Origin: a virus
Length of the DNA stretch: 37,232 bases
IMG/VR virus record: IMGVR_UViG_3300021961_000268
Span: 1-37,232 of that record
Direction: 5' to 3' (one strand)
The stretch's first letter is position 1. Each line of letters opens with the position of its first letter. The notes under the pieces were generated by a model. The model was not told the DNA's origin. It did not search any database and worked only from the letters and a program-made list of their open reading frames with translations. Positions 2,574 to 31,209 of this stretch are shown piece after piece. The position numbers and the translations under genes are program-made.

Positions 2574-5144
2574 ATGGCTGATTTTCCAGAAAGTCCAACA
2601 GTTGGTCAAGTTTTTGTATCCTCAGACTTTACAAATTGGGTCTGGGATGGATACTCATGGAAAGCCACAAACTATGGACTGATCAAGTTACCAGTTTCAC
2701 AAAACAGTTCGAGCACAATGCTTGCGAACTCTATGAATTTTGTGAACAGCGAAGCAATCATAGCAAATGTCAATTATGATTCTGTCAGCGGAAATGCTAA
2801 TGTATCAATAGAATGGGTTGAGTTAGTTGATCCTGTAGCCATGTCTTTAATATTTGGCACGGGATCAGAACCAAATCAAGTCATTCTAAAAGGTAACACG
2901 GACGAAATACTTTTTAACTATCAAGGTAGAATTGAAGCCAGTCCGTTACTTGAAGCAAACTCCGAGTTACAAACAGTTAATGTTTCAGGAGTTACAAATC
3001 GCGCTAATTTAGTTTTCCAAGGATATTATGGTGATCCTGTTTACTACACCAAGATGTGGCAAGATTATCCTGGAAATTTCAACTCAATTATAAGAAGAGC
3101 AGGATATGGTGAGGAGCAATGGTTGACAGTTGTTCCGAGTGGTCCTGACACAACGCTTTCGGTTGGATTTTCTGGTAGAGTTGGTGTTGGTACAATAAGC
3201 CCTGCTAGAAGTCTTCATATACTGGGTGATGGTACAAATAGCCCACAGTTAAGATTGACATATGAATCTGGAACTTCTGCTATAGAATTGTATGGATCAC
3301 CTGCATCTGATCAGACCATTTATTTTGGAACCAGCAGCGGTGGTGGGACTACAACGACTCTACCAGGACAGATAATTTACAATAATCCTGCAAATCAGTT
3401 TTCGATTGTGACTGATGGTGTAGAAAGAATGCGTATTACCAATACAGCCAATGATGGTAGTGTTGGTATCGGAACAACAACTCCAACATCTAAACTGCAC
3501 GTTAGTGGTAGGGTTATGATTGATGATGGAGATGGGACTGAATTAGTTGGTGGTGGTAGATTGCAACTTGTTTCTGGTTACGCATCGCCAGTATCTGGTC
3601 GTGTTATTATGGGTGATGGCACTGGTTGGCAAATGTATGTTAGTCGCAAAACTGGTGCTGGCGCTTTAGATGATCTGTATACATTTACTGACACTGGCGC
3701 ATTTAGCGCCACGGGATCTGTGTCAGCTGCTGGCGTAGACTTGGGTGCAACCATATCTGGAGTCCAAGGTCAGATAGCAGGTATACAAGGTCAGATCTCT
3801 GGTATTCAAGGATCAATAGCTGGAGTTCAAGGTCAGATTGCTGGTGTACAAACTATAGCAGAATCAGCAGCAAATACTGCGCGAGCATACGCAAATGGCG
3901 CAAGCGGAGTACAAAAATCTTTTCTAAATTTCAATCAAAGTGCAAATATATCTACAGCTGTTACAGCAGGAGCTGGCACCTTTGCAGGAAATGCTAACAT
4001 TTCTTTTGATTTAAGAAATACTAATGTTACTCCTGGATCATACACCTATGCTGCAATCACAGTTGATGAAAAGGGTCGTATAACTGCAGCATCTTCTGGT
4101 TCTACTGTTTCAGGTGCGCAAGGTGTTCAAGGTGTGCAAGGACCGCAAGGAATAATTGGAACAGATGGCAGAGGTGTGGGATTGGAGTATGTGTATAATA
4201 CTGGAACAACAGCACTTCTCGCATCAAGCGGTCAACTTAAATTTAACAACGCTACACCTGTTAATGCAACTAGAGCAAATATCAATGTAACTACATCAGA
4301 TGCATATTCAGCTGGTAGTTATTTAAATACTTGGAATATTGCTGATGGATCAACAAGTCCTATTGGATATCTACACATAACTAATGCTGATGCAGACAGC
4401 ACAGAATTTTTATCATTTGAAGTTACAGCCAGCGCAAACGCAAACACGAATGGAGTGAAGTCTTTCACCATACAAAATGGAGTTGGAAGCGGACTAACCA
4501 GTGGTGCTACTTATCTAGTTCAATTTATTCGAGCTGGTAGAGTTGGTGTGCAAGGCGCAGCTGGTGGTGAAGGAACCGTGGGTGTACAAGGCGTACAAGG
4601 CGTTCAAGGTCAAAAAGGTGCTGATGGATTGAGCACTGGTTCTATAACAACTGGTACACAATATACTATGGCATATTATGATGCTGCGGATGCAAATATA
4701 GATCCAGCTCCAGGAGTTCAATATTTTCCTGCAGCTGCTTCTGGGCAAGCTGGCTATCAACCCTATGTAAGTTTTTCTACCTCTGCTAATGTGCGTATAG
4801 CTGGCGCAATTATGGATACTCCAGTTCTAAGTGGATCTCAAGCAGCTTGGAGCTGCAATCACAATACAGCAGGAAAAATTATTCATACAACTGCATTATC
4901 TACTATCACATTTGACTCAGCCAGCTATTCTGGTTGGGCTGCAACTATTGTCAGAGGAACACAATCAGCAGTAACAATACAACCAAATAGAACTGGTGCT
5001 GTTGGTGTTCAGTCTAATATGTCAACTGGTGTTACTGCAGACACTGTAACAGGAGTGACTATCAAATCATATCTGGGTGCTGCAACTGTACTAGCTAATG
5101 CAACTAATCACTATATTGTATTTGGTGATATTGAGACGGTGTAA
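2574..5144 (+). CDS. Large tail fibre protein with mixed collagen-like and VGIGT/KLHV motifs
   Basis: An 856-residue fibre-like protein whose ATG directly follows the previous stop. The N-terminus has FTNWVWDGYSWKA, seen in many aquatic phage fibres. Two copies of a fibre-shaft motif follow: VGVGTISPARSLHILG (about residues 202-217) and VGIGTTTPTSKLHVSG (about 298-313). Residues about 395-425 contain a seven-residue repeat (IQGQISG-type) likely to form a coiled coil or beta-helical rod. Collagen-like stretches occur near residues 515-530 and 655-685. The C-terminal 170 residues are a Ser/Thr/Ala-rich beta-type domain. The layout is that of a trimeric fibre or baseplate-attached adhesin. The exact counterpart in T4 is not evident. 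Confidence 0.75.
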   Translation: MADFPESPTVGQVFVSSDFTNWVWDGYSWKATNYGLIKLPVSQNSSSTMLANSMNFVNSEAIIANVNYDSVSGNANVSIEWVELVDPVAMSLIFGTGSEPNQVILKGNTDEILFNYQGRIEASPLLEANSELQTVNVSGVTNRANLVFQGYYGDPVYYTKMWQDYPGNFNSIIRRAGYGEEQWLTVVPSGPDTTLSVGFSGRVGVGTISPARSLHILGDGTNSPQLRLTYESGTSAIELYGSPASDQTIYFGTSSGGGTTTTLPGQIIYNNPANQFSIVTDGVERMRITNTANDGSVGIGTTTPTSKLHVSGRVMIDDGDGTELVGGGRLQLVSGYASPVSGRVIMGDGTGWQMYVSRKTGAGALDDLYTFTDTGAFSATGSVSAAGVDLGATISGVQGQIAGIQGQISGIQGSIAGVQGQIAGVQTIAESAANTARAYANGASGVQKSFLNFNQSANISTAVTAGAGTFAGNANISFDLRNTNVTPGSYTYAAITVDEKGRITAASSGSTVSGAQGVQGVQGPQGIIGTDGRGVGLEYVYNTGTTALLASSGQLKFNNATPVNATRANINVTTSDAYSAGSYLNTWNIADGSTSPIGYLHITNADADSTEFLSFEVTASANANTNGVKSFTIQNGVGSGLTSGATYLVQFIRAGRVGVQGAAGGEGTVGVQGVQGVQGQKGADGLSTGSITTGTQYTMAYYDAADANIDPAPGVQYFPAAASGQAGYQPYVSFSTSANVRIAGAIMDTPVLSGSQAAWSCNHNTAGKIIHTTALSTITFDSASYSGWAATIVRGTQSAVTIQPNRTGAVGVQSNMSTGVTADTVTGVTIKSYLGAATVLANATNHYIVFGDIETV

Positions 5145-12817: not shown

Positions 12818-14485
12818 ATGGCAATTAATCTATTTGGCTGGGAACTTCTTCGTAAGAAAGGTCTAGCACCATCCGATCAACCTTCTATTGCACCACCTCA
12901 GACTGATGATGGTGCATACACTATTGGTGCAGGTGCTGTGGGTGGATACTACGGCACATATCTAAATCTTGAAACTGCATTCAAGAATGAAAATGAACTC
13001 ATCTCTCGCTATCGCACCATGGCAATGCAGCCTGAGTGCGAACAAGCCATTGACGAAATTGTTAATGAAGCAATTGTACATGATGAGAAAGGTAAGTCAG
13101 TTGACATTGTTCTAGATGATCTAGAACACTCAGATAACATTAAAGAACTTATTCGTGAAGAGTTCTATGAAATTTTAAAACTATTGGACTTTCAAAACTC
13201 AGGACACGATATCTTTCGTCGCTGGTATGTAGACGGAAGAATATTCTATCAAGTACAGATTGATCCAGCCAATCCAAAACTTGGCATTCAGGGATTAGTT
13301 TACCTTGATCCAAGAAAGACAAAGAAAGTTCGTGCAGTAGAAAAAGCAAGAGATCCTCGTACTAATGTTGATTATGTAAAAGGTACTCAGGAATTTTATA
13401 TCTACAATGAACGTGCAGTATTGGGTGGGGCGAATATGATGATGTCTAGCCCTGTAGATGCTTCTGTAAAGATTGCAGCTGACTCAGTGGTAAATATCAA
13501 TTCAGGATTGCTAGACGTATCAAGAAATATGGTACTGTCTTATCTGCACAAGGCTATCAAGCCATTGAATCAGTTGCGTATGATTGAAGATGCTGTGGTT
13601 ATCTATCGTCTATCCCGTGCGCCAGAGCGTCGCGTGTTCTATATTGACGTGGGTAATCTACCAAAAGCAAAAGCAGATCAGTATTTACAGTCAATTATGA
13701 CCAAGTTCCGCAACAAGGTTGTATATGATGCATCATCAGGCGAGGTGCGTGATGATCGTCGCTTCACTAGCATGATTGAGGACTTTTGGATTCCTCGTCG
13801 TGGTGAAGGAAAGGGAACTGAGATCACCACTCTGCCAGCTGGACAGAATCTTGGTGAGTTGACAGACGTCAAATACTTTGAGCAGAAACTATACAAGTCG
13901 CTTAATGTTCCATTGTCAAGACTTGAAGCTGCGCAGGGTTTCTCATTGGGTCGTACCACTGAGATTACTCGTGATGAAATCAAATTCAGTCGTTTTGTAG
14001 ATCGTCTGCGCAATCGTTTCTCAGGATTGCTAGACGAACTCATGAAGCGTCAGCTGGCTCTCAAGGGTATCGCTTCCGTTGAAGAATGGGAAGAGATCAA
14101 AGAAGATATTCACTATGATTGGATGGAAGACAATAACTTTGCAGAACTCAAAGACGCAGAGTTAATGACTTCTAGAGTTACACTATTGAATACCATGATT
14201 CCTTTCGTTGGAACTTATTATTCAATGCAGTGGGTTCGTAAGAATATCCTACAACTAACTGAAGACGAAATCAACGAGATGAAGGAAGAAATTGGTGCTG
14301 AACGTGAAGAGATGATGGCAATCGCACAGCTGGATGCAGAGAAACAAGCCATTCAGACTGCTACCGTAACACAGGCTCAGGTAAGTGCACAGATGCAAGC
14401 ACAACAGCAAAATGCACCGCCTGAACAACCTGCAAATATAAATAAAACTAGTGCTAACACAACCTCTAAAGGCGAGGAACAATAA
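12818..14485 (+). CDS. gp20: Portal protein gp20
   Basis: A 555-residue portal subunit, close to T4 gp20 (524). The dodecamer starts prohead assembly and is the channel for DNA packaging and exit. Recognisable gp20 segments are MAMQPECEQAIDEIVNEAIV, DILFRRWYVDG-like DIFRRWYVDGRIFYQ, LVYLDPRKTKKVR, RMIEDAVVIYRLSRAPERRVFYIDVG and LPAGQNLGEL, as used in gp20 diversity surveys of aquatic phages. The C-terminal 50 residues are Gln/Ala-rich and low in complexity. A GGAG site at 12808-12811 precedes the ATG. The distal end of the gene contains the late promoter of the next gene. Confidence 0.95.
   Translation: MAINLFGWELLRKKGLAPSDQPSIAPPQTDDGAYTIGAGAVGGYYGTYLNLETAFKNENELISRYRTMAMQPECEQAIDEIVNEAIVHDEKGKSVDIVLDDLEHSDNIKELIREEFYEILKLLDFQNSGHDIFRRWYVDGRIFYQVQIDPANPKLGIQGLVYLDPRKTKKVRAVEKARDPRTNVDYVKGTQEFYIYNERAVLGGANMMMSSPVDASVKIAADSVVNINSGLLDVSRNMVLSYLHKAIKPLNQLRMIEDAVVIYRLSRAPERRVFYIDVGNLPKAKADQYLQSIMTKFRNKVVYDASSGEVRDDRRFTSMIEDFWIPRRGEGKGTEITTLPAGQNLGELTDVKYFEQKLYKSLNVPLSRLEAAQGFSLGRTTEITRDEIKFSRFVDRLRNRFSGLLDELMKRQLALKGIASVEEWEEIKEDIHYDWMEDNNFAELKDAELMTSRVTLLNTMIPFVGTYYSMQWVRKNILQLTEDEINEMKEEIGAEREEMMAIAQLDAEKQAIQTATVTQAQVSAQMQAQQQNAPPEQPANINKTSANTTSKGEEQ
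14437..14444 (+). promoter_or_regulatory. Late promoter before the prohead repeat-protein gene
   Basis: An exact TATAAATA inside the last codons of gp20, ending 41 nt before the ATG at 14486. This is a plausible late start for the core-protein genes. Confidence 0.55.
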
Positions 14486-16162
14486 ATGGACACAAGAGAA
14501 CTAATTGACTCAATCATCGCAAGCGAAGAAGATTCTGCAGAGAAGTTTGTCTCTACCATGGAAGAGCGTATTTCAGATGCGCTTGAGGTTCGCAAGGTTG
14601 AACTAGCATCAGGAATGATGGGCGATCTAGAGGAAGCGAAGTTTGAAACTCGTGCGCAGTGGAGAGCTGAAACTCCTGCCGTGATTTTGAAGAGTTATAC
14701 AGCTTCATACAAAAAGAAAAAGAAAACTGATCCTGATAAGGCAGAAAAATTTTATAACAGTATTATCAAGCCACATCTAGAAAGACATCCAGAACTTGCA
14801 AAAGAAGAAGTCGAGCAGGTGGATGAGAACGTAGCAAGTTCGAACGACAGCAAAGAAATCAGAAGAATGATAGCACGCCAAGTTCGTGGTGGTGGAGACA
14901 CTCTCAAGGGTGGATTGGGTGCTCGTCTTGGTGGCGAAGGTCGTGGTGAGATTAGTCGAAGTAATACTGTTAGAGGACCAACTACTAGAAAGGGTACATT
15001 ATCAAAAAGAGTTCAACGCAAGTTGGCTAGTGTATCCAAAGAAGGTGGAAGAATTACAGGACCAAAAGGAAAACTTCCAGAAGAAGTCGAGCAGGTGGAT
15101 GAAGTTGCTAAGTGGAGAAGACCTCCGCGCAGCGCCATGCAAGCTGCTCTTGGTCGAGGTTTCAAAAGAGGTCTTGGTACTCCTGTGAACCCAATTGATG
15201 ATAAGCCAGAAGATAAACTCGCAAAACGTGCATCTATTTCTAACACTAAAGATCTAAAGGCTGCGATAAAAAGAGATCGTGCAAACGAAGAAGTCGAGCA
15301 GATTGATGAACTAAAGAAGTCAACACTTGCTTCATATGTTAATAAGTCAGCAGGAAGAATTCGCGCTGCTGCAGAACTTTCAAAAGAGTTCGGCAGCATG
15401 GGAGATACAGCTAAAACTGCAAAGGATAAACAAGCAGCACGTGGCTTAGAAAAAGATTTTGCAGACACAGCAGCCAAAAGAGTCATGGGAGTTCGTCGTG
15501 CAGCTGCTAGACTAGCAAAGGAAGAACTCAAGCCTGAATTTGCAAAGGCTTCTAAGAAACATCCTGAACTTGATAGAGATCAGAATCATCCAGATTCTCT
15601 CAAATTAAAAGCACCTGAAGAACTTAGAAACAAGCCACAATTTGCTAATCGACGATCGCGCGCAGACAAAATTCACGCAGCAGCAGCAGCACGTTACAAA
15701 CTTTACACTCGTGAAGTGGATGAGGAAGTCGAGCAGATGGATGAAGCAATTACTCTAAAACAAATAGACTATCAAAAAGGTCACAAGTTGATGTACAAAG
15801 ACGGCAAGCAAAAGATTGTACGCAGTAAGACAAGCCAAGCTGCTCATAGAGAACAGGGCTGGAAAGAGCGTTTCAGTGTTCGTGCTGCAGAAAAAGCTGG
15901 ATTGAAGAAAGAAGATGTTGAGCAGATCGATGAACTAAAGGCTAGTAAATATGCTGATATGACTGACAGACAAAAATTAATGTTGATGAAAGATAAGAGT
16001 GCGAGTCAGACCATTTCTGCATTAGCAAAGTATAGAAAGGTTGGTGATATTAATAAACTATCACCAGCTCATCGCACTTTAGTTGCTAACTATATGGAAA
16101 GAACTGGTGGCACTGGTGGTCTTTCTCGTTCAGTACAAATGATGGCTCTAAAGCAGAAATAA
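14486..16162 (+). CDS. Prohead core/internal head protein with repeated protease-site-like motifs
   Basis: A 558-residue protein in the position where T4 has the small core genes 67 and 68. I do not recognise its family by sequence. The first 60 residues are acidic and helical (MDTRELIDSIIASEEDSAEK). Five copies of E[ED]VEQ[VIM]DE follow at residues 107, 199, 268, 413 and 476. Between the motifs the sequence is strongly Lys/Arg-rich, with SYTASYKKKKKTDPDK and RNKPQFANRRSRADK. T4 gp21 protease cuts after the Glu of (L/I)-X-E; the I-D-E copies fit that rule, and the V-D-E and M-D-E copies are near fits. I infer a scaffold polyprotein that gp21 cuts into basic internal peptides. It starts right after the gp20 stop and its stop overlaps the next gene. 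Confidence 0.65.
   Translation: MDTRELIDSIIASEEDSAEKFVSTMEERISDALEVRKVELASGMMGDLEEAKFETRAQWRAETPAVILKSYTASYKKKKKTDPDKAEKFYNSIIKPHLERHPELAKEEVEQVDENVASSNDSKEIRRMIARQVRGGGDTLKGGLGARLGGEGRGEISRSNTVRGPTTRKGTLSKRVQRKLASVSKEGGRITGPKGKLPEEVEQVDEVAKWRRPPRSAMQAALGRGFKRGLGTPVNPIDDKPEDKLAKRASISNTKDLKAAIKRDRANEEVEQIDELKKSTLASYVNKSAGRIRAAAELSKEFGSMGDTAKTAKDKQAARGLEKDFADTAAKRVMGVRRAAARLAKEELKPEFAKASKKHPELDRDQNHPDSLKLKAPEELRNKPQFANRRSRADKIHAAAAARYKLYTREVDEEVEQMDEAITLKQIDYQKGHKLMYKDGKQKIVRSKTSQAAHREQGWKERFSVRAAEKAGLKKEDVEQIDELKASKYADMTDRQKLMLMKDKSASQTISALAKYRKVGDINKLSPAHRTLVANYMERTGGTGGLSRSVQMMALKQK
14804..15934 (+). repeat. Five dispersed copies of an 8-codon E[ED]VEQ[VIM]DE motif
   Basis: Copies at 14804-14827, 15080-15103, 15287-15310, 15722-15745 and 15911-15934, all in frame. 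The first four share the DNA core GAAGTCGAGCAG exactly, and the fifth differs by synonymous and conservative changes. Spacing is irregular (189-435 bases), so these are dispersed functional motifs and not a tandem repeat. Confidence 0.85.
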
Positions 16163-16377
16163 TGAAATTTAAACAACTACGCCAAAGAATCGACGAAGCA
16201 CCAATCACCAAGGAAATTATCCCTCAGATGATTATGGTGTTAAAGCGTCGTGGTATTCGCATGTTTCCAGATGGGCGCAAGGTTGCATTGTATGTGAATG
16301 ATAAGTACAATCTAGTATTCAGCGTTCCATTTGGTGATTCTGCTGGAGACTCTGTGCTTACAGGAGTAAAAGGATGA
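16162..16377 (+). CDS. Small conserved hypothetical head-region protein
   Basis: A 71-residue protein starting in the TAATG junction with the preceding gene and ending in an ATGA overlap with the next one. Family not recognised. Residues 8-13 read QRIDEA, an I-D-E/A sequence that fits the gp21 prohead protease rule, as in the upstream repeat protein. The remainder (PQMIMVLKRRGIRMFPDGRK then a beta-strand pattern VALYVNDKYNLVFSVPF) looks like a compact alpha/beta domain. Its place between the portal and the protease suggests a minor prohead-core component. This is context only. Confidence 0.6.
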   Translation: MKFKQLRQRIDEAPITKEIIPQMIMVLKRRGIRMFPDGRKVALYVNDKYNLVFSVPFGDSAGDSVLTGVKG

Positions 16378-17159
16378 TTGCAGAAGGACCACAAGGACCA
16401 GAAATTAATAGAGGTCCAGAAGACAATTTACACTATCAAGATGGTCCTAATAAGGGAAAACTTAGACCAAAATCAATTAGAGATGTTGAACAAAGCAGCC
16501 GATCACCAGCAAGTAAAGCACGCGCTGCAGAGTTTGCTAGAAATTTTGAAACAGGTAAAGATAAACCCAAGATCGGAAGCGGTTATGATCCCAGTAGAGC
16601 AATTAGAGATACTGAATTGACCACAAAAGGACAAGATGCCTTTAAAAGACACGCTGCTGAAATAGCAGCTGATACAAAAAAATTAAAGGCTGGTGGAAAA
16701 CTTTTGGCTAGAGTAGCTGGACCAATCCCTACTGCTGCTCTAACTGGCTATGAAGCTGGTAAATATTTGAATAATAAATTTAAAATATCTGATAGAATTT
16801 TAGATGCTACTATGAAAGAACAAATTTTGAATCGCATATACAATATTCTTGAAGAAAAGTTTGCAGTTCTAAAAGAAACTTTAATGCTTGAAGCGAATCG
16901 CAATGTTATCAAGCAGGGTAGAACTAAAATTATTCGTGCGCGTGTTCGTGGTGGTAAGGTTCAGAGAAGAAAGAAATTTTCTGCAGTAAAAGGATACACA
17001 ATCCGTGGTGGTAAATTAACACGTATGACTCCAGCAGAAAAGCGTAAAAGAAAAATCGGTGCGCGCCGAGCTAAATTAAAACGCAAAGCGAAAATGGCAC
17101 GCGCATTGATGAAGCGTAAGAGATCACTTAGAAAAAGAGCAGCATTGGGGTTAAAATAA
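16374..17159 (+). CDS. Basic prohead core protein (gp68-like, tentative)
   Basis: A 261-residue protein. The N-terminal third is Gly/Pro-rich and polar (MIAEGPQGPEINRGPEDN). A short hydrophobic helix near residues 112-128 (ARVAGPIPTAALTGYEAGK) follows. Residues about 150-175 (ILEEKFAVLKETLMLEANRN) form a helix containing L-M-L-E/A, a good match to the gp21 cleavage rule. The last 85 residues are extremely basic (RRAKLKRKAKMARALMKRKR). Position just before gene 21 and the basic C-terminus recall T4 gp68, a prohead core protein processed by gp21, but T4 gp68 is only about 140 residues. A DNA- or scaffold-binding core protein is the likely role. Confidence 0.6.
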   Translation: MIAEGPQGPEINRGPEDNLHYQDGPNKGKLRPKSIRDVEQSSRSPASKARAAEFARNFETGKDKPKIGSGYDPSRAIRDTELTTKGQDAFKRHAAEIAADTKKLKAGGKLLARVAGPIPTAALTGYEAGKYLNNKFKISDRILDATMKEQILNRIYNILEEKFAVLKETLMLEANRNVIKQGRTKIIRARVRGGKVQRRKKFSAVKGYTIRGGKLTRMTPAEKRKRKIGARRAKLKRKAKMARALMKRKRSLRKRAALGLK

Positions 17160-17804
17160 ATGAAACTCATTACTGAAACAGTAGAAGCAGTCAAGGTCAT
17201 CACCGAAGAAAAGAATGGTGTGAAGTCGTTGTACATCACTGGTCCTTTCCTTGTCGGCGAGACTAAGAATCGTAACGGTCGCAGTTATCCAATGCAGACT
17301 TTAGTCCGTGAGATGAAGCGTTACAACGAAGAATACGTTGACAAGAATCGCGCATTCGGTGAGCTGGGTCATCCAGATACACCTAGCATCAATCTAGATC
17401 GCGTATCTCATATGGTTACCTCTCTAAAGCAAGAGGGTAATATCATTATGGGGAAAGCAAAAATTCTGGAAACACCTATGGGTAAGATCGCCAAGTCTCT
17501 AATGGAGGGTGGCGCAACTCTAGGTGTTTCTTCACGTGGCATGGGCTCTCTAAAAGAAGTCAATGGCGTGAACGTCGTGCAGGACGACTATTATCTAGCC
17601 ACAGCGGCAGATATTGTTGCGGATCCATCCGCTCCAGGAGCCTTCGTACAAGGTATCATGGAAGGCAGAGAGTGGGTATGGGACAATGGTTTGATTAAGG
17701 AAGTCAGCATCGTTGAGATGTATGATGAAATTAAGAATGCCAAGCAACGTCAGTTAGAGGAAGTATCACTTCGAATCTTCGAAAACTTCCTTTCAAAACT
17801 TTAA
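17160..17804 (+). CDS. gp21: Prohead core protease gp21
   Basis: A 214-residue protease, nearly the length of T4 gp21 (212). It matures the prohead by cutting the scaffold, core proteins and the capsid N-terminus. It belongs to the herpesvirus assemblin-like serine proteases: the candidate catalytic His is H71 in FGELGHPDTP and the candidate nucleophile lies in LGVSSRG (S124/S125), with YLATAADIVADPSAPGAFV following. The start overlaps no neighbour but directly abuts the previous stop. Its likely substrates gp22, gp23 and the core proteins all lie next to it. Confidence 0.94.
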   Translation: MKLITETVEAVKVITEEKNGVKSLYITGPFLVGETKNRNGRSYPMQTLVREMKRYNEEYVDKNRAFGELGHPDTPSINLDRVSHMVTSLKQEGNIIMGKAKILETPMGKIAKSLMEGGATLGVSSRGMGSLKEVNGVNVVQDDYYLATAADIVADPSAPGAFVQGIMEGREWVWDNGLIKEVSIVEMYDEIKNAKQRQLEEVSLRIFENFLSKL

Positions 17805-17843: not shown

Positions 17844-19085
17844 ATGAGCAAGTCATTATCTGAATCTGCCGCTGAAATTCTAAGTGCATCAGTCGGAAAG
17901 GCTGGCAAGGAACCAATGAAGAAGGGTCCTGGCGACGCACAAGAAGTTGGTGGTTCAACAAACGACAACCCAGCTGGTCCTGACAATCCAGGAGCCAAGG
18001 CTGCTGCGCCAGTAGGCAAGGTTGCTGCTCCAGCCGTTAAGGGCGATGCAAAGGCTGTTAAGGTTAGCGCAATGGAAGAAGTAGAAAGCGAAGAAGAAAT
18101 CGTCGCTGAAGATGCTTCTGAAGATGTTGAACTAACTGAAGAAGAAATCGAAGAGTATTTGAATTCTTTGACAGAAGAAGAACTAGCCGCTCTTGCTGAG
18201 GAACTAGAATCAGAAGACTCAGAAGAAACTATTTCTGAAGAAGAAGTTTCAGAAGAAGAAATCGTCGCTGAAGAATCAGAAGAAGAAGCAGCTCCTGAAC
18301 TAACCGAAGAAGAAATTGCTGAAGCACGCAGAGTCGCAATGAAAGAAATGGTTGCTAAGAACATGGGCTCATGCAAGGAAGATATTGATGCGCTATTTAA
18401 CGGCGAGTCACTATCTGAAGAGTTCAAAGGTAAGGCAATTACAATCTTTGAAGCAGCTGTTCGCGCTCGCGTAGAAACAGTATGTGAGTCTCTATTCGCT
18501 GAAAACGATCAGATTCTTGCAGACACCGTTGCTTCTATCGAAGAAGATCTAACCAATAGCGTAGATGAGTATCTAAACCATGTCGTTGAGCACTGGATGA
18601 GCGAAAACGAACTAGCCATTGAAACAGGTCTACGCACTGAAATCGCCGAAGACTTTATGGAAGGTCTAAAGAACCTATTCACTGAGCACTACATGGAAGT
18701 GCCAGAAGAAAAGGCTGACCTAGTTGAAGAAATGGCTGAGAGAGTTGTCACCGCTGAAGAAGCACTAGAGCAGGTTCAAGAAGAACTTGCTGCTGCTACT
18801 AAGGTGATCAACGAAGCCAAGGCAAAAGAAATCGTTTCTCTAACCTGTGAAGGTCTAACCAAGGTACAGGCAGAGAAGATTAAAGCACTCGCAGAGGGTG
18901 TGGAGTTCACCACAGAGGGTGAGTATAAGTCGAAGCTCGCAGTGATTCGCGAGAATTACTTCCCAAGCAATAAACCAGTGAGAAGTGAAGTTCAGAATGT
19001 CGTTGAGACACATGAATCTGTTCAGGAAGTAAGCAATGTTATGGATCATTATGTGAAGTCAATTTCAAAGTCACTACCTAAGTGA
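17844..19085 (+). CDS. gp22: Prohead scaffolding core protein gp22
   Basis: A 413-residue scaffold, longer than T4 gp22 (269). Residues about 75-155 are extremely acidic, with runs such as ELTEEEIEEYLNSLTEEEL, while the first 70 residues are Gly/Pro/Ala/Lys-rich and probably flexible. From about residue 155 onward come long helices typical of gp22 (AARVAMKEMVAKN-like ARRVAMKEMVAKNMGSCKED, then ENDQILADTVASIEEDLTN, VTAEEALEQVQEELAA). It forms the internal core on which gp23 assembles and is degraded by gp21. The acidic insertion largely explains the extra length. It is read from the late promoter at 17809 together with gp23. Confidence 0.9.
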   Translation: MSKSLSESAAEILSASVGKAGKEPMKKGPGDAQEVGGSTNDNPAGPDNPGAKAAAPVGKVAAPAVKGDAKAVKVSAMEEVESEEEIVAEDASEDVELTEEEIEEYLNSLTEEELAALAEELESEDSEETISEEEVSEEEIVAEESEEEAAPELTEEEIAEARRVAMKEMVAKNMGSCKEDIDALFNGESLSEEFKGKAITIFEAAVRARVETVCESLFAENDQILADTVASIEEDLTNSVDEYLNHVVEHWMSENELAIETGLRTEIAEDFMEGLKNLFTEHYMEVPEEKADLVEEMAERVVTAEEALEQVQEELAAATKVINEAKAKEIVSLTCEGLTKVQAEKIKALAEGVEFTTEGEYKSKLAVIRENYFPSNKPVRSEVQNVVETHESVQEVSNVMDHYVKSISKSLPK

Positions 19086-19111: not shown

Positions 19112-20458
19112 ATGTATCTATCAGAAACTCATGCAAATAAGTGGGCTCCAGTTCTTGATCACCCAGAACTCCCAAAGATCGAAGATCGCTACAAGAGAGC
19201 AGTTACTGCTCTAGTTCTGGAGAATCAGGAAATCGCCCTAAGACAAGAAGCCGCTGCATACGGCAATCTATGGGAAACTGCACCAGCTAACGCATTGGCA
19301 GATGGCGGAATGTCACCAGTCATCGGTGGCGAAGGTAACATCAAGGGCTTTGATCCAATTCTAATTGGTCTAGTCCGTCGTGCCCTTCCTAACCTAATGG
19401 CATATGACGTTTGCGGCGTTCAGCCAATGACTGGTCCAACAGGACTAATCTTCGCAATGCGTACTCAGTATGCAAACAATACTGATATGCTAGGCGAAGC
19501 ATTGTATAACGAAGCTGACACAGACTTCTCTGGTACTGGCACACACGACAATCTAACTGCATTCGGCGACGCTGACTTCAGTGCAATGAGTGCAAACGTG
19601 GCTGCTAATACTGGTGCTGGTATGTCAACTGCAACTGGTGAAGATCTTGGCGCAAGTGGTGGTACAGAGTTCGGCGCAATGGGTTTCACCATTGAGCGTG
19701 TTGCTGTGCAGGCTAAGACCCGTGCGTTGAAGGCTGAATACACTCTAGAACTAGCACAAGACCTAAAGGCAATCCACGGTCTAGATGCTGAGACAGAGTT
19801 GTCAAACATCCTTTCAACAGAAATCCTAGCTGAAATCAATCGCGAAGTTGTTCGTACAATCTACGCAATTGCTAACGTAGGATACACTGGTACTTCAACC
19901 GCAACTTTCAACCTAAACTCATCAACTGATACATCAGGTCGTTGGGCGGTTGAGAAGTTCAAGGGTCTATTGTTTGCAATCGAAAAGGCAAGCAACAAGA
20001 TCGCTAAGGACACTCGTCGTGGTAAGGGCAACATGCTAATCGTCTCTACAGACGTAGCATCAGCTCTTTCAATGACTGGTCTTCTTGACTATCAGTCAGC
20101 TCTAAGCAACAACACCAACCTAGCTGTTGACGACACAGGTAACACCTTCGCAGGTACTCTGTTCGGACGCATCAAGGTCTACGTTGATCCATATTCTGTA
20201 ACAGGACAGGATTACGTGGTTGTTGGTTATAAGGGTCCAACTCCTTATGACGCTGGCTTGTTCTACTGCCCATATGTACCTCTACAGATGGTAAGAGCAA
20301 TCAATCCTAACACCTTCCAGCCAAAGATTGGCTTCAAGACTCGTTACGGTATGGTTGCTAACCCATTCGCTGGTGGTGCAAATGCTGATCTAGGCAAACT
20401 AGAGCAGGGTAAGAATGTCTATTATCGCAAGTTTAGAGTTACCAACCTAGTTGGATAA
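19112..20458 (+). CDS. gp23: Major capsid protein gp23
   Basis: A 448-residue HK97-fold capsid protein. Residues 32-40 TALVLENQE match the T4 pro-segment (KIFENQE), and later segments are near-identical to T4: RRALPNLMAYDVCGVQPMTG, GFTIERVAVQAKTRALKAEY, LAQDLKAIHGLDAETELS, LAEINREVVR, and near the end FQPKIGFKTRYGM. T4 gp23 has 521 residues; the missing length corresponds mainly to the region of its insertion domain. In T4, gp21 removes the first 65 residues; the equivalent cut here is not obvious. No gp24 vertex gene follows. A GGAG at 19099-19102 gives the start. Confidence 0.97.
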   Translation: MYLSETHANKWAPVLDHPELPKIEDRYKRAVTALVLENQEIALRQEAAAYGNLWETAPANALADGGMSPVIGGEGNIKGFDPILIGLVRRALPNLMAYDVCGVQPMTGPTGLIFAMRTQYANNTDMLGEALYNEADTDFSGTGTHDNLTAFGDADFSAMSANVAANTGAGMSTATGEDLGASGGTEFGAMGFTIERVAVQAKTRALKAEYTLELAQDLKAIHGLDAETELSNILSTEILAEINREVVRTIYAIANVGYTGTSTATFNLNSSTDTSGRWAVEKFKGLLFAIEKASNKIAKDTRRGKGNMLIVSTDVASALSMTGLLDYQSALSNNTNLAVDDTGNTFAGTLFGRIKVYVDPYSVTGQDYVVVGYKGPTPYDAGLFYCPYVPLQMVRAINPNTFQPKIGFKTRYGMVANPFAGGANADLGKLEQGKNVYYRKFRVTNLVG

Positions 20459-29972: not shown

Positions 29973-30009
29973 GTTTGTATGATGTTTGTTATTGATGGAG
30001 AGTGAGAAT

Positions 30010-31209
30010 ATGCGAAAGTCCAATTACAACACTGCCGAACAGAAGGCAGATATTTGCGCCAAGATTCGCGAGCACTTCGGTGCGGACGTGATTGGTGTAA
30101 AACAGATTCACGAATACGTTTCTGAAACTGACGTCAGTTTCCCGTATTTCATCCTGCGTGAGCGCAAGATTGGTCGCAATCAGTACGATCTGGTTGGCGA
30201 CATTCAGCCCATGGCTAAGAAGCCCAAGGCAGTCAAGGTTCAGGCTCCCGTGTCTGAGTCCGTTGCTGCACCTGCGATGGTTGCGCAGGTGGTTCCGTTT
30301 CAGCGCAAGCGTGCGTCTAGCGTCGCTGACTCGCTGGTTCCTTTCAAGAATACCACTTTTGTCCCGTTCGGTTTCTACAATGACCTGAAGGGCATTCTCA
30401 AGTCTGGTATCTTCTATCCCATCTACATCACAGGTCACTCTGGTAACGGTAAGACCATGGGTGTCGAACAGGCGTGTGCGCAGCTCGGTCGCGAGTTGAT
30501 CCGCGTGAACGTCACCAAGACCACCGACGAGATCGAGTTGTTTGGTTCCTACGAACTCATCAACGGCGACACCGTGCGCACCGATGGTCCTGTAACCACT
30601 GCGATGCGTCGTGGTGCGGTGCTGCTGCTCGACGAGAGCGACTATGGTGCCGAGGGTTTGACCTGTCTTCAGGGTGTGATGGAAGGCAAGCCATACTACG
30701 ACAAGCGCACTGGTGAGGTCATTCATCCTGCTGCTGGTTTCATGATCGTTGCTACTGGTAACACCAAGGGCAAGGGCGACATCGACGGTCGCTACATGTA
30801 TACCAACACCATGAACGAAGCGTTCCTGGAGCGTTTCGCCATCACCGTCGAGCAGGATTATCCGCCAGCTTCTGTTGAGCGCAAGATCCTTTCCAAGAAC
30901 TTCAGCGAGTTGAATCTGTCTGACGATGGTTTCATTGATCACCTGATCAACTGGGCTGAAGTGATCCGCAAGTCTTTCAAGGAAGGTGCGGTGGATGAGG
31001 TTATCACCACTCGCCGTCTGGTTCACATCGCGAAAGCCTATGCAATCTTTCAGGATCGCTCTCGTGCAATTCAGATGTGTCTGAATCGTTTCGACGAAGA
31101 TACCAAGAATGCGTTCATGGATCTGTATACCAAGGTTGATCCTACAGCCAACACCGTGGCTGATGCGGTTTCAACCGAGGATCGGATTGAAAGTGATCCT
31201 GAGTTCTAA
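30010..31209 (+). CDS. cobS: MoxR/CobS-type AAA+ ATPase
   Basis: A 399-residue AAA+ ATPase. Several in-frame starts exist upstream, but ATG 30010 lies 9 nt after GGAG. The first 65 residues form a small helical domain with a Pro/Ala-rich linker (70-110). The ATPase core has Walker A GHSGNGKT (142-149), Walker B LLLDESD (205-211), sensor 1 VATGNT (247-252) and an arginine finger in AFLERF (271-276). The sequence resembles the cobS genes annotated in many T4-like cyanophages. With the VWA protein upstream it probably forms a two-part remodelling or metal-insertion machine. The chlorin/cobalamin role is uncertain because no CobN-like subunit is visible. G+C content is high, like its partner. Confidence 0.8.
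   Translation: MRKSNYNTAEQKADICAKIREHFGADVIGVKQIHEYVSETDVSFPYFILRERKIGRNQYDLVGDIQPMAKKPKAVKVQAPVSESVAAPAMVAQVVPFQRKRASSVADSLVPFKNTTFVPFGFYNDLKGILKSGIFYPIYITGHSGNGKTMGVEQACAQLGRELIRVNVTKTTDEIELFGSYELINGDTVRTDGPVTTAMRRGAVLLLDESDYGAEGLTCLQGVMEGKPYYDKRTGEVIHPAAGFMIVATGNTKGKGDIDGRYMYTNTMNEAFLERFAITVEQDYPPASVERKILSKNFSELNLSDDGFIDHLINWAEVIRKSFKEGAVDEVITTRRLVHIAKAYAIFQDRSRAIQMCLNRFDEDTKNAFMDLYTKVDPTANTVADAVSTEDRIESDPEF

Follow-up and report, generated by a model that had tools for sequence, protein, structure and literature searches.

T4-like phages rank with the most abundant viruses of aquatic environments, and most of their small genes are without a function. In the T-even phages, small host-interaction genes are swapped between T4 relatives at short conserved sequences; whole genes move in that case, whereas the arrays described here exchange modules in frame within one protein at a coding linker.

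The internal proteins IPI-III and Alt of T4 are small head-internal proteins, which a capsid-targeting sequence (CTS) directs into the prohead core and which gp21 frees by cutting at L/I-x-E (PMC9026906). The arrays would resemble them in location, targeting and release, and CTS-like N-termini are found on many array neighbours and on some arrays. However, the T4 proteins have one cargo per gene and a single N-terminal cut, while the arrays would hold several cargoes with repeated internal candidate sites, and the 558-aa protein treated here has a gp67-like domain instead of the CTS used by IPI-III and Alt. The T4 core proteins gp67, gp68 and gp22 correspond to the 558-aa protein in gene position, in the gp67-like N-terminal domain and in having several candidate gp21 sites. 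T4 gp67 is short, acidic and fragmented by cutting, whereas the 558-aa protein is more than a short acidic gp67, with five basic, exchangeable segments appended, and a separate gp68-like ORF lies downstream of it.

The inner-body and ejection proteins of the phiKZ-like phage SPN3US, cut by gp175/gp245, are comparable in their long propeptides, several cut sites and cell-entering head cargo, but their motifs clear propeptides, and the passages on them describe no chain of modules joined by a constant, shuffled linker (PMC5694885). The family phrog_5709, to which AGS80949 of Caulobacter phage Cr30 belongs, has the same module types, the array design and [LI]-x-E before the modules; it differs in its linker letters (ESENLNE and ESEEMINE) and is annotated as of unknown function.

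Gene order of the head region

The window, i.e. the whole stretch of DNA analysed, is a 37-kb fragment (37,232 nucleotides) of a T4-like myovirus, and its source is a cyanophage-like T4 relative. Its head genes, with all features given below on the + strand, follow the order gp17, gp18, gp19, gp20 and the 558-aa array ORF, downstream of which come a 71-aa ORF, a 261-aa gp68-like ORF, gp21, gp22 and gp23. The gp20 portal protein (12818..14485) precedes the module-array ORF (14486..16162, as initially annotated), which occupies, between gp20 and gp21, the place of T4 gene 67. The 71-aa core ORF (16162..16377) has the N-terminus MKFKQLRQRIDE↓A (the arrow marks a candidate cut), a candidate propeptide, and most of its relatives possess L/I-x-E close to the N-terminus. 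The gp68-like core protein (16374..17159) has a very basic C-terminus, and [LIVM]-x-E stands ahead of the basic domain in all compared relatives.

Both sites proposed in the initial annotation for these two ORFs, QRIDEA and LMLEAN, are present. It also placed gp21 just downstream of the array ORF; the prohead protease gp21 (Peptidase_S77; 17160..17804; phrog_207, E 2e-79; PF03420, E 9e-32) is on the downstream side but not adjacent, as the two ORFs intervene. The gp22 scaffold (17844..19085) and the gp23 major capsid protein (19112..20458) complete the order, the latter having a conserved L-x-E (LWE↓T) that aligns with the region of the maturation site in T4. The gp21 of the window shares 65% identity with that of Synechococcus phage S-H9-1, and the gp23 shares 59% identity with that of Stenotrophomonas phage DLP6. 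Elsewhere in the window, an 856-aa ORF (2574-5144) without a PHROG match neighbours a collagen-like tail-fibre ORF (316-1986), and a CobS-like ORF (29986-31209; porphyrin biosynthesis, phrog_249) represents a cyanophage-type core gene.

Linkers and modules of the 558-aa protein

The motif E[ED]VEQ[VIM]DE occurs at residues 107, 199, 268, 413 and 476, exactly where the initial annotation had placed it, in five copies compared with none in 2000 residue shuffles of the protein. At the DNA level the copies constitute a 36-nt direct-repeat family of five members, and the pattern GARGTYGARCARNTNGATGA (up to 3 mismatches) has 8 matches in the window against 0.48 expected, the five best of which are the five linkers (four exact, one with one mismatch).

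The N-terminal segment (first 114 residues) is acidic (pI 4.9) and begins with the gp67-like acidic prohead-core domain (residues 1-51; 14486..14638), which ends at a predicted LEE↓A site. Linker 1 (EEVEQVDE, residues 107-114; 14804..14827) is followed by the basic module 1 (residues 115-198; 14828..15079), linker 2 (EEVEQVDE, residues 199-206; 15080..15103) by the basic module 2 (residues 207-267; 15104..15286), a singleton in segment clustering, and linker 3 (EEVEQIDE, residues 268-275; 15287..15310) by module 3 (residues 276-412; 15311..15721). Linker 4 (EEVEQMDE, residues 413-420; 15722..15745) precedes the basic module 4 (residues 421-475; 15746..15910), and linker 5 (EDVEQIDE, residues 476-483; 15911..15934) precedes the C-terminal module 5 (residues 484-558; 15935..16159). 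The segment after each linker is basic, as had been claimed, with a pI of 9.6-10.9, and from charge alone the modules may bind DNA.

The whole protein has no match in Pfam, in PHROGs or in tblastn against phage isolates, and relatives were thus found by module-level searches. Module 5 shares 55-56% identity with the C-terminus of the nearest relatives, and module 3 starts with a widespread two-helix module (LSKxTLGSYxKKA), aligned to about residues 276-352, while searches of viral contigs gave no relative of modules 1 and 4. AlphaFold2 predicts the two-helix module as a helical hairpin (mean pLDDT 86.6), with the linker placed within the first helix at lower confidence; the full-length model (mean pLDDT 55) is not interpretable. 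Foldseek gave no informative match for the two-helix module, its top match being a like protein of an uncultured phage.

Putative N-terminal targeting

Residues 1-51 are identified as a gp67-like prohead-core domain by homology and by the position after gp20. They align with the stand-alone gp67-like core ORFs following gp20 in related phages (hhalign 97.9%, E 6e-13) and, more weakly, with RB32 gp67 (88%; score 31.6, with 200 shuffles reaching at most 19.0), compared with less than 1% for each of RB32 gp68, gp21, gp22 and gp19; an hmmsearch value of 9e-15 comes from a model whose training set contains the query. This domain is taken to be the putative head-targeting element of the 558-aa protein.

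In the T4 CTS, targeting depends on positions 4 and 7 and processing on positions 8 and 10 (PMC9026906). A CTS was accordingly defined as N-terminal, hydrophobic at 4 and 7, aliphatic at 8 and Glu at 10. CTS-like starts are found in 100 of 1683 ORFs of these loci versus 8 in residue shuffles, a less permissive control in which each ORF was tested at its first start codon alone, and in 9.1% of ORFs within 3 kb of an array ORF versus 2.8% farther off. The N-terminus of the 558-aa protein is gp67-like and does not fit this definition, and that of the 71-aa neighbour (MKFKQLRQRIDE) is CTS-like with different spacing.

Arrays in the gp20-gp21 interval start with a gp67-like domain or, often, a CTS, and a few have neither clearly. 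Where a stand-alone gp67-like ORF is present, the following array is often CTS-initiated (MKTLRQIISE, MKTLKDFLNE, MKKFKELVAE, MKKFRDLLSE). The linker itself was considered as a CTS and rejected, since it is internal and has E and Q, which are not hydrophobic, at the targeting positions. Targeting would come from the N-terminus and not from the linker, a point missed by the initial annotation.

Distribution of the array family

The 558-aa protein is one member of a large, previously undescribed family: neither EEVEQIDE nor a polyprotein of this linker and module design was found in the literature searched. The linker DNA GAAGTCGAGCAGNTNGATGA was matched in at least 119 viral contig stretches, and relatives of the protein are encoded at 67 loci. 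In some 250 different motif contexts, the linker reads [K/N]EEVEQ[VIML]DE and the modules that follow it are many and unrelated; the inner modules have a median pI of 10.0 compared with 7.7 for other ORFs. Across 257 Gb of bacterial and archaeal genomes, a related 23-nt linker pattern turned up in just two stretches, the first a chance match in a GC-rich frame and the second an array of the same kind, carried by a contig assembled from a metagenome. One contig assigned to an uncultured bacterium by binning (L198:1-2283) encodes a T4-like phage module array that has linkers and the CTS-like start MKNLKSFIKE. Of 50 motif-bearing records, 20 contain gp21, and every one of 99 kb or more contains both gp21 and gp23; the linker therefore travels with T4-type heads.

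The arrays occupy two places, the gp20-gp21 interval as in the window and a second, syntenic locus near a cytidyltransferase, a gp61-type primase and often a Dps-like gene, which is also found in the isolates P-TIM68 and Cr30. Examples of this apparent capsid-cargo locus are L032:5335-11129, L150, L174 and L014, and the isolates L187, L188 and L203-L209. Genes of the second locus beside distant arrays (cytidyltransferase, DUF6267 protein, small unknowns) often have a T4-type CTS start. The gp22 scaffold ORF of some relatives contains the linker motif or a close variant (L054:408-1727, L025:4762-6120, L075:2370-3563).

Virions of S-SM1 contain the cytidyltransferase T4-GC190 (PMC3037559). Its N-terminus, MKKFSAFLNE↓A, is a perfect CTS, as are those of five homologues. 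Virions of S-CREM2 contain the cytidylyltransferase gp154, together with the hypothetical proteins gp155, gp156 and gp160, the last detected by 7 unique peptides at 13% coverage, too little to tell cut from uncut; the authors allow for co-purification of non-structural proteins (PMC10665884). The four proteins come from one locus, gp154 begins with MKNFSSFLTE↓A, and gp160 is an array protein, two modules of which recur in reversed order in the array of P-TIM68 (80% over 45 aa and 66% over 44 aa); LEE and ISE stand before these modules. True packaging of the virion-detected cytidyltransferases is more likely because their N-termini are CTSs, which suggests that their presence in cyanophage virions is real packaging and bears on the earlier doubt of one study, whose authors could not tell packaging from contamination.

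These data also bear on whether the array proteins are an extended prohead-core scaffold, which gp21 would cut to many pieces, as with T4 gp22, gp67 and gp68, and whose pieces would leave, so that the modules are not cargo. Such a scaffold would account for the gp67-like N-terminal domain, for the gp20-gp21 position and for the motif inside some gp22 ORFs, and the T4 core proteins are indeed cut to fragments, most of which leave the head (PMC9026906). It is nevertheless quite improbable, as the modules are distinct exchangeable domains, including a complete DUF3008 and a near-complete DUF6321, some arrays are distant from the core genes and neighbour a cytidyltransferase that bears a CTS, S-CREM2 virions retain an array protein, and modules with a basic charge should bind DNA and remain.

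Module exchange at the linkers

Near-identical modules recur beside unrelated neighbours in different arrays. Among 108 module pairs of at least 70% identity, which are not mutually independent, the neighbour is non-homologous in 58 and non-homologous on both sides in 30; near-identical pairs were adopted for this count as single-linkage clustering had put 312 of 475 segments in a single chained family. The fall in DNA identity, from some 95% to background level, coincides exactly with the 24-nt linker, making the linkers the boundaries of module exchange. In the pair L007/L023, at one end of a module, 87 of 90 bases are identical before the linker, 20 of 24 within it and 25 of 90 past it, and at the opposite end of the same module the values are 20/90, 22/24 and 89/90. 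The profiles of L082/L114, L096/L117 and L058/L101 break at the linker in the same way. The nearest relatives of the 558-aa protein, L047 and L121, have the N-terminal segment in common and diverge past the linker, and in L131 a complete DUF3008 domain (114-169) exactly fills the gap between the linkers at 105-112 and 170-177. Modules are thus exchanged in frame between phages at the linkers.

Codon choice in the linker is position-specific, with GAA in 84 of 85 copies at Glu-1 and in 39 of 83 at Glu-4, and CAG in 60 of 85 at Gln. The exact 15-mer GAAGAAGTCGAGCAG is found in 9 of 51 flank-distinct linker copies, where fewer than one is predicted from codon frequencies. The mean synonymous-codon identity of linkers is 0.640, only marginally above the null (0.590, maximum 0.641), and the claim on DNA is therefore based on how identity breaks at the linkers, on codon choice by position and on the haplotype count. 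The linker DNA is taken to be common by descent through recombination, and this common DNA may in turn promote exchange. The linker as a recombination boundary is new, absent from the initial annotation, and better supported than the polyprotein reading.

The linker as a candidate gp21 cleavage site

The initial annotation had read the linkers by the L/I-x-E rule of T4 gp21. All five have Glu at P1, but only two follow the rule (IDE), the other three having V, V and M at P3. L/I-x-E tripeptides are no more frequent in the 558-aa protein than by chance (4 observed versus 5.9 expected by shuffling), and counting them was dropped as evidence for that reason. Across the family, P3 of the linker is V in 188 cases, I in 109, M in 17 and L in 9, whereas T4 gp21 sites carry L or I at P3 (PMC9026906), and the gp23 maturation-site region in the clade of the window has L-x-E, with P3 as in T4. 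Val may be tolerated at P3, since the homologous gp68-like site is VSE↓A in two relatives and has I or L at P3 in others.

About 28 module starts lack the canonical linker, as counted after removal of unrelated gp20 matches; at P1 they always have Glu, at P3 they have only L, I or V, and the other letters vary. Altered linkers are also found in S-SKS1 (EEPEQLDE, EEFEQLDE) and P-TIM68 (EEVEKIDE, EETNLDE), besides those of Cr30. The P1 Glu and an aliphatic P3 thus persist as the linker letters vary, which in sequence terms matches the rule of gp21, and the linker would be a gp21 cutting site. The conserved P2 Asp and upstream EEVEQ exceed what T4 gp21 needs and count against cleavage, as do the prevalence of Val at P3 and the lower-confidence placing of the linker within a helix of the AlphaFold2 hairpin.

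These features could instead belong to a modular internal head protein that stays uncut, in which the linker is a flexible acidic joint and exchange point, its DNA kept alike by recombination. The sharp exchange boundaries, the common linker DNA, the codon bias differing between Glu-1 and Glu-4, the prevalence of Val at P3 and the conservation upstream of the last three residues are all in keeping with such a joint. We consider it unlikely, because the altered linkers of Cr30, S-SKS1 and P-TIM68 and the non-canonical module starts keep exactly the P1 Glu and the aliphatic P3, for which pure recombination offers no reason. The same variation makes a further role most improbable, in which the linker would be a repeated motif that binds the scaffold or another head protein for multivalent recruitment, with no part in either proteolysis or recombination: the whole octamer is strongly conserved across unrelated flanks, as such a motif would be, but its upstream letters vary between phages while P1 and P3 are constant, it has E and Q where the T4 CTS needs hydrophobic residues, and the arrays already have a distinct element for targeting at the N-terminus.

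Proposed processing and significance

The 558-aa protein is probably a gp21-cut precursor of head-internal cargo, which is the best explanation of these observations and a well supported one. The polyprotein of the initial annotation holds as a prohead-core chain of basic segments between candidate gp21 sites, to judge from the gp67-like N-terminus, the kept P1 and P3, and the presence of an array protein and of a CTS-bearing array neighbour among published virion proteins. As the linker resembles a protease site and also marks module swaps, the chain is probably a mix-and-match precursor of head-packed proteins. By homology, the gp67-like domain would co-assemble with the prohead core and carry the whole chain inside, a T4-type CTS possibly taking this part in other arrays. 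Cleavage by gp21 after the last Glu of each linker would then free small, mostly basic and mostly helical modules, which would be retained in the head with the DNA and might be injected.

The near-fixed 24 nt of the linker could provide short homology for in-frame recombination of modules between phages, and a new module placed between two linkers would therefore be targeted and released automatically. The chances are about even that the linker serves both purposes, as a 24-nt homology handle for in-frame exchange and, once translated, as a head-protease release site, forming an open combinatorial cargo cassette. If so, aquatic T4-like phages could gain and deliver new injected proteins without evolving targeting and processing for each.

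A recognisable linker would divide many hypothetical proteins into defined, exchangeable modules. As it predicts packaging of the modules, and perhaps injection, it would yield a set of testable candidates for proteins of early host takeover or counter-defence, and the linkers suggest a natural route to multi-cargo phage delivery systems.

EF-hand-like DKNxNGKID segments are found in array proteins and a short CTS-like ORF (L128:4665-5624, L131:4719-6746, L055:4716-4949; reverse-strand coordinates), and their sequence suggests calcium-binding modules. In Melnitz (L196:2876-4828) and HTVC008M (L195:2555-4345), a nucleotidyltransferase domain is fused to downstream modules, and enzymes may therefore also ride in module chains; the ORF of Melnitz has the CTS-like start MKKFSEIIEA.
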